NCBI GenBank assembly: GCA_947588805.1
Contig: CANPYR010000024.1
Span: forward strand, 1 to 36,434
Reading direction: 5' to 3'
From: an uncultured Clostridia bacterium
GTDB lineage: Bacteria > Bacillota > Clostridia > Oscillospirales > Ruminococcaceae
Length of the DNA stretch: 36,434 nt
Shown: positions 4,783 to 19,548 of the stretch, one piece after another
Position numbering within the stretch: position 1 is the first letter of the stretch
Layout of the letters: each line of letters opens with the position of its first letter
Made by a program: the position numbers and the translations under genes
Notes under the pieces: generated by a model
What the model was told of the DNA's origin: nothing
The model's database searches: none
Seen by the model: the letters and a program-made list of their open reading frames with translations, nothing else

Positions 4783-5045
4783 GGACAGACGGTCAGAGGT
4801 CAGAAGACATATGAAGCGGCAGGAGCGGGATGACTGAGGATTAGGCTCACTTCTTGGGGAGGAAGGCCGGATTAGTTGGGGCTATGGATTTCTGCTTCTA
4901 TCTTTCATTTCGCTATGGAAAAGGGGCGCTATCCCGCTTCTATCTTCTATTTTCTAATTTCTAATTTTTAACCCTCTAACTCTCTAAAAGCTCCGAAACC
5001 TATAGTTACAACATCTGACTTCTGATTTCTGAATTCTGTCTTCTA
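4783..5045. repeat. composite intergenic repeat (inverted relative of the copy at ~30340-30500)
   Basis: It contains, in order, a purine-rich tract (GGTCAGAGGTCAGAAGACA), the conserved motif TCTTTCATTTCGCTAT (4901-4916), a TTCTATCTTCTATTTTCTAA tract, and a 44-nt block at 4974-5017 that is the exact reverse complement of 30381-30424. It ends in pyrimidine-rich copies of the TCTGATTTCTGAATTCTG tract. No gene is visible here. Confidence 0.8.
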
Positions 5046-14586: not shown

Positions 14587-14704
14587 TCTTTCATTTCGCT
14601 ATTAAGAAGGGCGCGGCAAGCGGCGGCGAGATTCGCTGCTTTATTGCTGAATCTCTACCGACTGCTCCCCGCCCTCCCGCCCGGCCCGCGAATCTCGCCG
14701 CCGT
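14587..14704 (+). repeat. 118-bp structured element, copy E1
   Basis: It begins TCTTTCATTTCGCTAT and contains a perfect 15-bp stem, CGGCGGCGAGATTCG (14621-14635) with CGAATCTCGCCGCCG (14689-14703), around a 53-nt loop containing CTACCGACTGC and CCCTCCCGCCC. A copy of the same length in opposite orientation is at 19431-19548; its stem differs at three pairs, all compensated. It lies about 55 bp upstream of the RadC-like gene's promoter. Confidence 0.85.
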
Positions 14705-14758
14705 CATTGAATCAATTTCAAAAACCCAAAAATGTCCCCATCTTTTTTCCAAAACGTC

Positions 14759-14787
14759 TTGACAAAATTCCCGGCGTATTGTATAAT
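14759..14787 (+). promoter_or_regulatory. consensus promoter of the RadC-like gene
   Basis: TTGACA (14759-14764), a 17-nt spacer and TATAAT (14782-14787), a perfect sigma-A consensus about 95 nt upstream of the start. Confidence 0.9.
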
Positions 14788-14881
14788 ATATTCGAAAATA
14801 TATTATTTTAACTGTTCTTCCACGCATGGCTGCGTTGGGAGAACTACTTCTGAAATTCGACTGAGAAACGAGGGCGCGTCA

Positions 14882-15718
14882 ATGGCTAAGCGTGGGAAAG
14901 CTGAGGAAAATTTGACCGAAAATGCTGCGAAGACGGTCGGTGAAACGCCGGAAAAGGATGAAGCCAAAACTCCCGGGAATCACGAAAAGAAGCCGAAAGC
15001 GCAGTCTTCTCATGCCAAAAAATCCGTCTCGGAGGAAAATATTCACAGCGGACATCGGTCAAGGCTGCGTGCCGAAGCGTGCGAAGGCGGGTTTCGCAGG
15101 ATGAATCCGCACAGGTTTTTGGAGTATCTGTTGACATATCCCATCCCTCGGCGCGATACCAATCCGCTCGCGCACAGGGTCGTGAACCGTTTCGGAGGTA
15201 TCGGAGAAGCTTTTTCAGCCGATATCGGCGAGCTTGAAGAGGTCGATGGGCTCGGCGAGACGAGCGCGATTTTTCTGAATCTTTGCGGGAAATTTTATGA
15301 AGAATTCGGGATGAAAGACCCGGAGCTCCCGAAGCCTTGGAGCACGGAATACAGCCTTATAAACTACCTCGCGACTATTTACGACGGCTCGAAGCCTGAG
15401 GTTTTGTTGCTTTACACCTATTCTGACGGAAGGGTGTTTTTTGTTGACAGATTTGAGGACGACCTGCGCGGAGATCCTATAAAATTACGTCAAAAAATAG
15501 TTAAATCCTATGACAGTTTTCGTTATCCCTGCGCTATCATTCACTGCTCGAGCGAAAAGAGAGTGGCGGAAGAAGAATCGAAGATCATGGAGGATATCAT
15601 CAGCCGCGTCGACGAGGGTTGGGATTTTTTAGAAGCTTCGCTTTTCAGAGAGAACGAGATCGAGCGGCATCTGATGAACGGGCATGTGAGACGTTGGAGA
15701 TATCCTAAGTTTTTCTGA
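14882..15718 (+). CDS. RadC-like protein with degenerate JAMM domain
   Basis: The 278-aa product has a low-complexity Lys/Glu-rich N-terminus (1-55). The RadC/UPF0758 helix-hairpin-helix region follows (~56-135: HSGHRSRLRAE, FLEYLLTYPIPRRDTNPLAH, VVNRFGGIGEAF, VDGLGETSA). The C-terminal ~120 residues align in position with the RadC JAB/MPN domain. The metal motif HxHPSGxxxxSxxD is absent: only His221 (IIHCSSEKR) remains. A zinc-dependent isopeptidase-like activity is therefore unlikely, while the DNA-binding part looks intact. RadC-family function is poorly understood even for intact members. The ATG at 14882 follows GAGGG; upstream in-frame codons overlap the promoter and are rejected. Confidence 0.8.
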   Translation: MAKRGKAEENLTENAAKTVGETPEKDEAKTPGNHEKKPKAQSSHAKKSVSEENIHSGHRSRLRAEACEGGFRRMNPHRFLEYLLTYPIPRRDTNPLAHRVVNRFGGIGEAFSADIGELEEVDGLGETSAIFLNLCGKFYEEFGMKDPELPKPWSTEYSLINYLATIYDGSKPEVLLLYTYSDGRVFFVDRFEDDLRGDPIKLRQKIVKSYDSFRYPCAIIHCSSEKRVAEEESKIMEDIISRVDEGWDFLEASLFRENEIERHLMNGHVRRWRYPKFF

Positions 15719-15840
15719 GAGACTGTCAGCGATTAGAATTCAGAAGTCAGAAATCAGAATTCAGAATAAACTTTACCTCTCTGCGCTGCGAGCTCATAGA
15801 AGATAGAAGATAGAAGATTAAAAATTAAAAATCAGAATGG
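15719..15840. repeat. purine-rich repeat tracts
   Basis: Two runs are visible: ATTCAGAAGTCAGAAATCAG near 15735 and ATAGAAGATAGAAGATAGAA near 15795. They match tracts in the other composite intergenic repeats. No gene is present. Confidence 0.7.
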
Positions 15841-15877
15841 AAACGCCCCTTTCCCTCCAAAAAATTTTCTTTTCCTC

Positions 15878-15906
15878 TTGCATTCCATATGAAAAAATGT
15901 TAGAAT
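15878..15906 (+). promoter_or_regulatory. promoter of the GH94 gene
   Basis: TTGCAT (15878-15883), a 17-nt spacer and TAGAAT (15901-15906), about 40 nt upstream of the start. Confidence 0.75.
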
Positions 15907-15948
15907 AAAAAAGAAGAAAAGGCATAAGCCTAAAAGGAGGATCTGATT

Positions 15949-18351
15949 ATGAAATACGGTCATTTTGATCTCGCCGCGAAGGAATACGTGATCACCCGGC
16001 CCGATACCCCGGCCCCGTGGTGCAACTATCTCGGCTCGCCCGCCTACGGCGCGATCATTTCAAACAACGCCGGAGGATACAGCTTCGTACAGAGCGGCGC
16101 GAACGGACGAATCTCACGCTACCGCTTTAATTCAATGATGGCGCTTCCCGGAAGATATATCTACATCCGGGATAACGAATCCTGCGACTATTGGTCCGCG
16201 ACATGGCAGCCGGTCGGTAAGCCGCTCGAACAGTATATCTCCGAGGTTCGTCACGGAACGGGATATTCCGTCATGAGCGCCGAGTATTCCGAGATTCGCT
16301 CGGAAGTCTCCTACTACGTCCCGAACGGCGCTACTTACGAGGTCTGGCGCGCCAAGGTCAGAAATCTTTCATCAAAGCCGAGAAAGCTCTCTGTTTTCGG
16401 TTTTTTGGAATTCACAAACGACAGCAACTACGAACAGGATCAGGTGAATCTTCAGTATACTCTGTTTATCACCAGGACCTCCTTTGAGGGCGGCAACAGG
16501 GTGATACAGCACATAAACGAAAACTCCGGGCGGGACGCTTCCGGCTCAAATCACCGCGAACGCTTCCTGGGACTTGCATGCGCAAAGGCTGACGCTGCGT
16601 GCGGAAATCTTGACGGATTCATAGGGGCATACAGAACATACTCAAACCCGATAGCGGTCGAAAACGGCAAGCTTGACGGAACGATGAACTATAACTCCAA
16701 CGCCTGCGGAGCGCTTCAGTCGGATATCGCTCTCGAACCGGGCGAAGAAAAGACATTTATTTATATCCTCGGTCAGCGCGATTCAAAGGCCGCGGGGGAG
16801 ATAATAAAGAAATACGACTCCGATCCGGGGCTTGTAGACATGGAGATCGAAGAGCTTAAAAGCTTCTGGCATGAAAAGCTTGAACGCTTCTCGGTCGAGA
16901 CTCCGTCCGAGGAATTCAACAACATGATAAACGTCTGGAACGCTTATCAGTGCTTTATCACTTTCACATGGTCCAGGGCCGCTTCGCTTATCTACTGCGG
17001 ACTCAGAAACGGCTACGGCTACCGCGATACCGTTCAGGACATTCAGGGCATTATACATCTTGATCCCGAGATGGCGCTTGAAAAGATCCGCTTTATGATC
17101 TCGGCGCAGGTCGATAACGGCGGCGGTCTCCCGCTCGTCAAGTTCAACCACAACGCCGGCCATGAGGATACCCCCGACCAAGCTTCTTATGTTCAGGCGA
17201 CGGGGCATCCCTCTTACCGCGCCGACGACGCGCTATGGCTCTTCCCGACGGTATATAAGTACATCGGCGAGAGCGGAAACACCGCGTTTTTGGATGAAGT
17301 CATAGTTTACGCCAACGGCGGCGAGGATACGGTTTACGATCACTTAAAGAGAGCGATTAACTTCTCTATGGAACGCCTTGGCGCTCACGATATGCCGGCG
17401 GGACTTCACGCCGACTGGAACGACTGTCTAAGGCTCGGCGCGAAGGGAGAATCGACCTTCGTCGCGTTCCAGCTTTACTACGCGATGAGTCTTATGAGAT
17501 ACTGGGCTTCCGAACGCGGAGACAAGGAGTATCTTGAATATCTCGACAAAGTACAGCCGAAGCTCGGAAAATCCCTCTCGGATTGCTGGGACGGTGACAG
17601 GTTCATAAGAGGAATACGCGAGGACGGAGTCGTAGTAGGCGCGAAATCGGATCCCGAAGCGAGCATGTGGCTCAACCCGCAGAGCTGGTCGGTAATTTCC
17701 GGCTTTGCAACTAAAGAGCAGGGTCTGACCGCGATGGATTCGGTCCACAGGATTCTGAACACCAAATACGGCGTAAAGCTTTTAGAGCCGCCCTATGTCG
17801 ATCACTTCTTTGACGGCGCTCTTATGCACATATTCAATCCCGATACCAAAGAAAACGGCGGCATCTTCTCGCAGTCGCAGGGCTGGGCGATACTTGCGGA
17901 GTCGCTTTTAGGGAACGGAAACCGCGCGTTTGAGTACTTCCTTGAGAGCTCCCCGGCGTCTATGAACGACAAGGCCGAGATCAGAGTTATCGAGCCGTAC
18001 GTCCACGGGCAGTTCGTAGAATCTACGCGTTCACCCTTTGAAGGCAGGGCGCACGTTCACTGGCTCACCGGTACCGCTTCAACGGTCATGGTAGGCTGCG
18101 TTGAAGGAATATGCGGCATGAGACCGAATTCCGAAGGTCTTATAATCGATCCCGCGATACCGTCCGAGTGGCCGAAGATGAAGATGAAAAAGGTCTTCCG
18201 GGGAAGAAAGCTCGATATCACGGTAGATAACTCCGCGCACGTTCAGTCGGGAGTCAAGGAGCTTATTCTGAACGGCGAAAAGCTCCGCGGAACGCTTATC
18301 CCGGAGAGCAAACTCAAGGAGGAGAATGAAGTCAGCGTCGTGCTGGGGTGA
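15949..18351 (+). CDS. GH94 family glycoside phosphorylase (cellobiose/chitobiose phosphorylase-like)
   Basis: At 800 aa it is full length for GH94 enzymes, which split beta-1,4 disaccharides with phosphate, giving a sugar 1-phosphate and a free sugar in the cytoplasm. The N-terminus, KYGHFD...EYVITRPDTPAPW, with NYLG and GGYSF, closely follows the family. GLRNGYGYRDTVQDIQG is the conserved barrel segment, and ADWNDCL carries the general acid Asp492. Later motifs are ASMWLNPQSW, SQSQGWAI and HVHWLTGT. I cannot separate cellobiose, cellodextrin, cellobionate and N,N'-diacetylchitobiose specificity. No signal peptide is present, so the substrate must be imported; no sugar transporter is next to it. 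AGGAGG precedes the ATG. It stands alone between its own promoter and terminator. Confidence 0.9.
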   Translation: MKYGHFDLAAKEYVITRPDTPAPWCNYLGSPAYGAIISNNAGGYSFVQSGANGRISRYRFNSMMALPGRYIYIRDNESCDYWSATWQPVGKPLEQYISEVRHGTGYSVMSAEYSEIRSEVSYYVPNGATYEVWRAKVRNLSSKPRKLSVFGFLEFTNDSNYEQDQVNLQYTLFITRTSFEGGNRVIQHINENSGRDASGSNHRERFLGLACAKADAACGNLDGFIGAYRTYSNPIAVENGKLDGTMNYNSNACGALQSDIALEPGEEKTFIYILGQRDSKAAGEIIKKYDSDPGLVDMEIEELKSFWHEKLERFSVETPSEEFNNMINVWNAYQCFITFTWSRAASLIYCGLRNGYGYRDTVQDIQGIIHLDPEMALEKIRFMISAQVDNGGGLPLVKFNHNAGHEDTPDQASYVQATGHPSYRADDALWLFPTVYKYIGESGNTAFLDEVIVYANGGEDTVYDHLKRAINFSMERLGAHDMPAGLHADWNDCLRLGAKGESTFVAFQLYYAMSLMRYWASERGDKEYLEYLDKVQPKLGKSLSDCWDGDRFIRGIREDGVVVGAKSDPEASMWLNPQSWSVISGFATKEQGLTAMDSVHRILNTKYGVKLLEPPYVDHFFDGALMHIFNPDTKENGGIFSQSQGWAILAESLLGNGNRAFEYFLESSPASMNDKAEIRVIEPYVHGQFVESTRSPFEGRAHVHWLTGTASTVMVGCVEGICGMRPNSEGLIIDPAIPSEWPKMKMKKVFRGRKLDITVDNSAHVQSGVKELILNGEKLRGTLIPESKLKEENEVSVVLG

Positions 18352-18394
18352 AAGATTTCGCGGCGAGGGATGAGGGAGATACAGTCTGAGAATG

Positions 18395-18425
18395 TCCCTG
18401 CGGGAGGTCCCGCAGGGATTTTTTG
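18395..18425 (+). terminator. terminator after the GH94 gene
   Basis: CCCTGCGGG (18396-18404), AGGT and CCCGCAGGG (18409-18417) followed by ATTTTTT. Confidence 0.92.
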
Positions 18426-18502
18426 TATACTAAAAGAGCGGAGCCCCAAGGCTTCCGCTCCATTTCTGCTATTCTACGCCGCTGCCGACCTCTCGTTCTC
18501 TG

Positions 18503-19324
18503 CTATCCCCCGAACCTCTCCATAAACACTTCGGGCCACATCAGTGCGTCGGCGTTCTTATTTATCTCCTCCTGCGACCACTCCCACCAGCGCGTCTTTA
18601 AAAGCGCTTTTATCATTTCCGGCCGGTAGCGGTACTTTATCACCTTTGCCGGCACCCCGACTACCACCGAATATGGCGGCACGTCCTTTGTCACCACCGC
18701 GCCCGCGCCTATCACAGCGCCGTCGCCTATTGTTATAACTTTTGAACAGTTTATAAATGTGTGCGCGCCTATCCAAACGTCGCTTCCGATTGTGATCTTC
18801 GGCTTTCCGTATGCATATGGGTGTTTCGGATCAAGAGCGCAGAGCTTTTTAAATTTCTGACGGTTTGATTCGGTAAAGAAACCGTCAAGCTCGTCCGTCA
18901 CAAACATCATATTAGAGTGATGGTCGCAGTGAATAACGGCTGTAGAATTGATAGAAGTATATCTTCCTATGGATTCGATATATCCGTTTCGGCATGCTTC
19001 GATAACGCCTTCGCCGAAGTAGGTCTGACGGCCGATTTTTGCCCCGTACAGCTCCCAGTCAAACGGCAGCTCTTTTCCTACATCCTCATAAGAGATATAA
19101 TCCTCCACGCTCTTAAATCCCTCGCTTTTCGGCTCAAGCAAAAAGTCGGTGAGATCGTCGTCAGTGACCGCGACAACATAGTGCCGTCCCGGGTCTACGC
19201 TCTCGGTGAACGCGTACCCGTAAGGCTCCAATTGCCGTTTTAAAAGCCGCGTAGGTTCGCCCCAAACGACTATTTCCCTGCCGCGAAGGCAGTGCTCGAA
19301 AATTTGTCTCAGTCTTGTAGTCAT
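18503..19324 (-). CDS. CatB-type hexapeptide-repeat acetyltransferase with N-terminal extension
   Basis: The 273-aa protein ends in a left-handed beta-helix acyltransferase domain: [38 protein letters not shown] and [17 protein letters not shown]. The tail [20 protein letters not shown] is typical of CatB/xenobiotic acetyltransferases, which transfer acetyl from acetyl-CoA to hydroxyls of sugars or antibiotics. A candidate catalytic His is in the IHCDHHSN segment (~132-139). The first ~95 residues form an extra domain ([20 protein letters not shown]) like those of surface-sugar acetyltransferases, which makes a glycan substrate likelier than chloramphenicol. GGAGG lies 9 nt before the ATG. 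No clear promoter is visible, and it converges on the GH94 terminator. Confidence 0.85.
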
Positions 19325-19430
19325 ATATTTTGACCTCCGAAATGTGGGTGGTGGGTATAAAAGCGAATAGTTTTTTTATTTAAATTTTGGGGGATGGCCG
19401 GTTTGCGGTTGGAATATAGAATGGATAAAA

Positions 19431-19548
19431 GCGGCGGCGGGATGAGCGGGGAAGGGCGGGAGGGTGGGCGCAGTCGGTAGTGATTCCGCAGAGAAGCAGC
19501 TCATCCCGCCGCCGCGTGCGCGCCCTCTTTTCATAGCGAAATGAAAGA
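19431..19548 (-). repeat. 118-bp structured element, copy E2
   Basis: This is the inverted counterpart of 14587-14704 with the same length. The stem is 17 bp: GCGGCGGCGGGATGAGC (19431-19447) with GCTCATCCCGCCGCCGC (19499-19515). On the minus strand the loop shares CTACCGACTGC and CCCTCCCGCCC with E1. The conserved ATAGCGAAATGAAAGA (19533-19548) ends the element. Sequence matching the composite repeat continues to its right. Confidence 0.85.

Follow-up and report, generated by a model that had tools for sequence, protein, structure and literature searches.

Two stem-loops on a Ruminococcaceae contig belong to a high-copy family of palindromic repeats with a conserved G-quadruplex motif and nested inserts

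Why should two stem-loops on one bacterial contig carry different stem sequences in which each change is matched by a complementary change in the opposite arm? The question arises on contig CANPYR010000024.1 of an uncultured Clostridia bacterium of the family Ruminococcaceae (assembly GCA_947588805.1), whose positions 1 to 36,434, the whole stretch of DNA analysed here, we call the window. The two stem-loops, at 14587-14704 on the plus strand and 19431-19548 on the minus strand, are each 118 bp long and have leader and loop in common, just as a first-pass annotation of the sequence had described them. That annotation took the element to be present twice, and here the picture changes: both stem-loops are copies of a dispersed repeat family, which we call R1, with ~100 copies in their own genome. 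R1 combines this copy number and dispersal with stem compensation between species, a near-constant loop length, a conserved quadruplex run whose spacers vary and inserts at one fixed place; copy number, quadruplex run and nested inserts had all been overlooked.

Copy number was assessed in the genome that carries the window (2.0 Mb, 86% complete). With copy 1 as query, BLASTN returned 51 match rows there, in some cases two rows for the halves of a single copy; 24 further genomes of the genus and 16 of the order gave no match. At E<=1e-9 a covariance model built from 31 copies recovered 54 complete copies; at E<=0.001 it gave 106 rows, and many of the low-scoring ones represent halves of insert-bearing copies. 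A half-profile scan of 329,452 bases, in stretches fetched mostly around matches, revealed 110 left halves, with the right half close by in 53, further off in 31 and absent in 26; five of the 31 had lengths outside the insert classes described below and are probably joins to a neighbour, so that 26 were kept.

The R1 unit is ~85 nt long and consists of a 15-17-bp GC-rich stem, of the type GCGGCGGCG[A/G]GATTCGC, around a loop of 49-52 nt, with unit length (83-86 nt) and loop length each held in 49/53 uninterrupted own copies. The loop reads GCTRCTTT..TGC..GAA...CTACCGACTGC[G/T]CCC followed by C tracts, and its run CTGCKCCC-N-CCC-N-CCC-N-CCC is the complement of a short-loop G-quadruplex motif. 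Four G tracts of at least three with short loops were found in 46 of 49 uninterrupted loops (4 shorter copies excluded), against a mean of 12.2 and a maximum of 20 after shuffling only the C-rich 26 nt, and a mean of 2.7 and a maximum of 7 after shuffling the whole loop. The canonical form ACTGCK-C3/4-N-C3-N-C3-N-C3 is present in 43/49 loops, and the three spacers of these 43 runs vary (A25 G9 T9 / T23 A15 G5 / G32 A5 T6). These loops carry the sequence motif of G-quadruplex DNA, and folding is predicted from it.

Copy 1 begins with a leader module at 14587-14619 (TCTTTCATTTCGCTAT...), which also precedes many genomic copies, and continues on the plus strand with the left arm GCGGCGGCGAGATTCGC (14620-14636), a 51-nt loop containing CTACCGACTGC (14637-14687) and the right arm GCGAATCTCGCCGCCGT (14688-14704). 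Its quadruplex motif GGGCGGGAGGGCGGGG lies on the minus strand at 14667-14682 (plus strand CCCCGCCCTCCCGCCC), in the run that nested inserts occupy in other R1 copies. Copy 2 has the same layout on the minus strand, with leader module at 19516-19548, left arm GCGGCGGCGGGATGAGC at 19499-19515, 51-nt loop at 19448-19498 and right arm GCTCATCCCGCCGCCGC at 19431-19447, its quadruplex motif GGGCGGGAGGGTGGG falling on the plus strand at 19454-19468. The stem of copy 2 pairs at 17/17 Watson-Crick positions, the 17 bp first reported, whereas that of copy 1 (14620-14636 / 14688-14704) shows, instead of 15 bp, 16 Watson-Crick pairs with a G.T at its end. Between the left arms there are three differences, at stem positions 10, 14 and 15, all indeed compensated in the right arm; the right arms differ additionally at the outermost position, which is copy 1's G.T. 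All four DNA folds of the window copies were more stable than dinucleotide shuffles (0/200 as stable, each), as were the RNA folds of copy 1 plus (0/200), copy 1 minus (1/200) and copy 2 minus (0/200). In the window, a covariance scan gave nothing over noise except the two copies and their opposite strands, and Rfam gave 0 matches at gathering score; at E<=1, seven copy-bearing loci gave six Rfam matches, two tRNAs over gathering and four below, in agreement with the earlier statement that no Rfam family fits. The argument that three double changes imply function does not stand on this pair, because one arm of a palindrome can serve as the template for correcting the other, or the palindrome may be duplicated as a whole, and two paralogues alone are insufficient.

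Compensation was followed through 79 arm pairs of the genome, 53 from uninterrupted copies and 26 from copies with inserts. Own arms match at 15.43 of 17 positions on average, whereas re-dealt arms reach a mean of 14.62 and a maximum of 14.98 (2000 shuffles); 29 of the 79 pairs show no mismatch across the 17 positions, and 62 have at least 15 matching. Stem position 10 is A-T in 42, G-C in 29 and something else in 8, the apical types ATTCG, ATTTG and ATGAG are matched by their partners in 36, 9 and 5 copies, and the loop-adjacent C-G and G-C pairs are kept in 72 and 73 copies, respectively. Further copies with non-complementary stems, named by the first-pass annotation as what would speak against a functional fold, do occur in part: 50/79 arm pairs are imperfect, 12 of the 79 are uncompensated hybrids in which ATTCG meets an ATGAG partner, and further mixed copies exist. 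As own arms surpass re-dealt arms and hybrids nonetheless occur, compensation inside the genome is real, and R1 copies also exchange halves or decay.

The comparison between species carries the case for the fold. In a genus sample of 31 genomes including its own, the R1 model matched G014 six times, G046 twice and G017 and G004 once each, with no match in the 26 other genus genomes. The eight non-own matches that were read have different stem sequences, complementary over 8-17 bp. A stem-free pattern, CTGCKCCCNCCCNCCCNCCC with at most one mismatch, gave 98 hits (54+44) in a second species of the genus, G014, against 6 (2+4) for a reversed control pattern, and 1-3 hits in seven more of 30 genomes; of 30 pattern loci, three (L300, L309, L312) do not rise above the control and two (L302, L307) are doubtful. 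Among 20 G014 loci read, the best stem score was 13-17 in 18 (exceptions L313, L320) and the loop 49-52 nt in 18 (exceptions L311, L313), with the quadruplex run closer to the left arm than in the window's genome. Across species, 202/209 cells of 19 distinct stems are Watson-Crick pairs (shuffling gives 113.6 on average and 150 at most), with arms that were located by seeking complementarity near the motif; random positions in those loci score mostly 4-9, and the few at 10-17 are taken for hits on other R1 copies. The 19-stem set leaves out repeated stems, the weak loci L302, L306, L307 and L313 and the stemless L300, L309 and L312, and in 19/19 of its stems the two loop-adjacent pairs are C-G and G-C. 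Because the stems stay complementary across species at this level (shuffled mean 114), the fold of R1 matters, and the initial claim holds in that its stem is maintained by compensation. A separate observation concerns two genomes of another genus (G061, G264), where a CTGCGCCCNCCCNCCCNCCC run occurs in small hairpin-free repeats (L331, L332, L334, L335, L337, L339).

R1 copies fall into total-length classes of about 85, 169, 207, 250, 318 and 400 nt. A first insert, AAACTTGCCGG...CCGGCAATGTTTT, of 84-86 nt interrupts the quadruplex run at a single fixed place, and all 40 places in the genome found by BLASTN with its left part lie inside an R1 copy (40/40); among 29 insert places read together, one was without the left half and in three no right end was found. 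A second palindrome, AACAACGCGATTAAAACT...AGTTTTAACGCTTTGTT, sits inside the loop of the first insert, and a third inside the second. At L155 and L162 (C18 and C31 of the same genome), a third-level insert is followed by a tandem second copy of the second-level palindrome within one R1. Gapped identity is 95.9% in the insert arms versus 83.5% in the outer parts over 24 copies, and 90.1% over the whole insert versus 82.8% in the outer part for the 13 copies whose only insert is the first. Ungapped values of 97% for arms against 80% for outer parts had led us to consider an insert much younger than its hosts, a firm claim that the gapped comparison removed. Insert presence is scattered over a tree of the outer parts (19 changes, shuffled mean 21.8, 29/300 shuffles as low), a weak tree built on 74 nt, and the scatter is compatible both with recurrent arrival at a single site and with copies exchanging sequence.

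The first nested palindrome is a family in its own right, R2, of 84-87 nt and strongly covarying. BLASTN found relatives in nine other genus genomes (10/31 with its own), and a covariance model extended this to 14/31, its own included, the richest genome holding 99 matches; none was found at E<=1e-6, under stricter filters, in 117 genomes from other genera of the family, and a covariance scan of the window for R2 gave nothing over noise. In 53 matches (43 distinct), aligned by fitting to the model, which favours pairing, 98.1% of cells pair versus 77.8% in shuffles, 22 of 27 pairs show double changes, and covariation is 0.522 versus 0.143 in shuffles, with slid controls reaching 0.106. The internal loops of R2 are symmetrical GA/GA loops, and a locus-specific stem of ~5 bp closes the structure; judged by eye, the palindromes of the second and third level look like other R2-type elements found in the genus (L198 and a 71-nt one in L164). 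Four R2 matches of the window's genome lie outside R1 copies (L181, L353, L359, L360). One of them, at L353 ~1501-1587 (C37:1633-1719), falls in a gene that looks by eye mobilisation-like, with a stop codon at the R2 junction in the by-eye frame.

R2 also enters protein genes. In G004 a copy lies in a SIR2-like gene (Pfam score just under cut-off) with the frame open (L240, G004:C52:5696-6370), and the orthologues of G010 and G009 (L241, L243) are without R2, giving an empty site and a net insertion of 84 nt, or 28 codons, in frame. Other copies, each without an empty site, lie in a DUF4440 protein gene with open frame, in a helix-turn-helix protein gene near its start, and in two serine recombinase genes, named by eye, with broken frames. 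A long open frame through R2 was flagged in 19/39 matches, and because most such frames look spurious, most R2 copies are left with no convincing host gene. One R2 pattern had 0 exact matches in viral contigs, and the flank of an R2-interrupted recombinase had no match in plasmids and one in phages, covering 7% of the query in an unannotated record. At one boundary offset, 7/33 cases have direct repeats of at least 3 bp (shuffled maximum 5), which derive from shared flanking modules.

The surroundings of the hairpins are themselves mosaic. A solitary leader module with no hairpin after it lies at 4902-4916 on the plus strand (exact match and covariance scan), so the third leader first noted at 4901-4916 is an exact 15-base copy that heads no stem-loop. 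Around R1 hairpins two modules are seen repeatedly, the leader TTCTGCTTCTATCTTTCATTTCGC and, downstream, GCTTCTGACTTTATTATTCTACAGTCATAAAGC (window 4880-4940 and the flanks of many copies), and the leader also occurs alone, giving mosaic intergenic repeats. Paired R1 copies ~179 bp apart were seen at C5:66448-66711, C10:40026-40289, C13:17338-17599 and C26:25359-25622 of the window's genome; in each pair the first copy has an altered right arm and the spacer holds a palindrome like GAGCTTCATTTCATTCTGAAATGAAGGCTC. Copy 1 neighbours a DUF4830 gene and an unassigned gene starting at ~14882, before which a perfect TTGACA-17-TATAAT match lies at 14759-14787, 55 nt past the copy; copy 2 neighbours a hexapeptide transferase-like gene and an AlkZ-related gene. 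Positions 15949-18348 hold a glycoside hydrolase family 94 (GH94) gene, whose 800-aa product is 93% identical to a protein in the uncultured Clostridia metagenome-assembled genome Lapin-012__bin76.

We read R1, with a probability of roughly 0.6, as non-autonomous mobile DNA hairpins that an enzyme would move. The stem would form once the DNA is single-stranded, on the lagging strand or in an extruded cruciform, and the G run would fold and hold the loop open. A trans-acting enzyme would then read the shape of R1 rather than its stem sequence and copy or move it to new intergenic sites, and selection on active copies would preserve arm complementarity while sequence drifts, giving species-specific stem types. 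The exposed loop may be the target of R2, giving the nested forms, or, equally possibly, the insert may spread from copy to copy via gene conversion around the quadruplex.

Several observations weigh against this reading. No enzyme was linked to the family, donor transposons having been sought by PF01797 only, and this profile of the Y1 (REP/IS200-type) transposase gave 0 matches in the window's 86% complete genome and 5/14 matching control genomes; it was not found in G009 either, which has 45 R2 matches, so a Y1 transposase seems unneeded. No convincing target-site duplication was seen at 33 R2 boundaries nor, by eye, in the R1 flanks of 15 G014 copies. Nor was an R1 empty/filled site pair found when the nearest relatives of the window locus were compared, as these match just the GH94 gene region (15865-18334 at best), with at most 82% DNA identity among the six relatives listed. 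By model R1 is present in only 5/31 genus genomes, and an R1-type C run at 6 loci of the other genus (G061, G264), none with a stem, speaks against the hairpin as sole unit of selection. Insert copies resemble one another only moderately more than their hosts do, so the insert is not necessarily younger and may be under stronger constraint. Finally, R1 copies in tandem gaps favour one orientation modestly, a preference not required of a purely selfish element.

This last point is drawn from 107 copies scored against gene calls by open frame and codon use (3 low-scoring ones omitted), of which 4 overlap a gene call, the family lying mostly outside genes; both orientations and all gene arrangements occur, the 95 copies flanked by genes on both sides comprising 40 in tandem gaps with the C-rich strand reading with the genes, 19 against them (P 0.009), 20 divergent and 16 convergent. 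Such a bias would suit a hairpin working at the RNA level, where it would stabilise 3' ends or separate transcription units and have its copies kept for that purpose. Stem compensation suits RNA as well as DNA, the median distance to the upstream same-strand gene end is 207 nt, and promoter-like sites within 250 nt downstream occur in the element's sense at 16/101 copies versus 7 antisense. However, such sites are rarer after R1 than before genes in general (34/103), which also led us to reject a promoter accessory role, and the gap is divergent or convergent for 36 of the 95 placed copies. Neither window copy has a T run after the long stem, where a terminator scan gives only a sub-hairpin, and ~100 copies in two species with few or none in the other 29 genus genomes is unlike a conserved RNA. 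We therefore consider an RNA element unlikely, if the strongest of the alternatives.

It is less probable still that there is no selection on the fold, the arms being complementary through palindrome self-correction (template switching, quasipalindrome repair) or whole-unit copying. The window pair with its three double changes fits this equally well, and the hybrids that mix types between left and right are what exchange between copies would yield, but the near-constant 49-52-nt loop, the C tracts kept while spacers vary and the common C-G/G-C step at the loop in every one of the 19 stems would all be left unexplained.

That R1 is a REP (repetitive extragenic palindrome) or BIME (bacterial interspersed mosaic element) of a RAYT (REP-associated tyrosine transposase) system with an unusually long loop is very improbable: like the GTAG and CGTC super-families it is a short high-copy intergenic palindrome in both orientations with species-variable, compensating stems, and CTAC (GTAG on the other strand) occurs in 38/49 uninterrupted own loops, but this GTAG sits in the loop and in only 1/20 G014 loops, no constant tag was seen by eye at the stem foot in 15 G014 flanks, and the ~85-nt unit with its ~51-nt loop, quadruplex run and no Y1 transposase found contrasts with the 20-40 bp and unpaired tag at one end given in PMC3733652.

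R1 resembles REPs, miniature inverted-repeat transposable elements (MITEs) and Rickettsia palindromic elements (RPEs) in being small, palindromic and dispersed, and it departs from REPs in size, tag position and transposase and from RPEs in rarely lying within genes. The likeness of R1 and R2 to MITEs extends to terminal inverted arms; MITEs carry transposon ends and usually create target duplications, terms that also appear in PMC10969869, and these traits were shown for neither family. The GC clusters of yeast mitochondrial DNA are palindromes inserted into palindromes, a likeness by description only, as they belong to a eukaryote organelle. Retron-derived copies, in the manner of the msDNA-like repeats in Nannocystis, were also weighed as a candidate reading. 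RPEs, given as 105-146 bp in Rickettsia by PMC2229807, are closer to R2 in that the palindrome can lie in frame inside protein genes and is found between genes as well, whereas R2 is 84-87 nt long, belongs to a Firmicutes genus and mostly lacks a convincing host gene in the copies examined. The TM-ECO intrastrand triplex motifs of enterobacteria are, according to PMC4666352, G/C-rich and intergenic like R1 and linked to DNA instability; they measure about 34-37 nt and join a G/A-tract stem to a third strand, unlike the mixed-sequence stem of R1 with its G tracts in the loop. A literature search that covered few subscription journals turned up no work on the R1 or R2 repeats.

A bolder picture, which we hold to be doubtful, is that palindromic parasites form a hierarchy in this genus of gut Firmicutes and recognise DNA by its fold, not its sequence: a quadruplex hairpin with free stem, a second family homing into its loop, and third and fourth hairpins nested further (~68-84 nt per step), all of which would be moved by a type of enzyme so far unconnected with such repeats. 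For many high-copy palindromes of bacteria no mover is known, and the fixed nesting site seen here points to structure-directed insertion or exchange. In-frame insertion of a palindrome, known from Rickettsia, is now seen in a genus of Firmicutes too, where R2 has an empty site documented at the DNA level. Two families in one genus keep their shape, and R1 also its loop length and quadruplex run, despite complete change of the stem sequence; as shape is kept while stem sequence changes, recognition by structure becomes testable.

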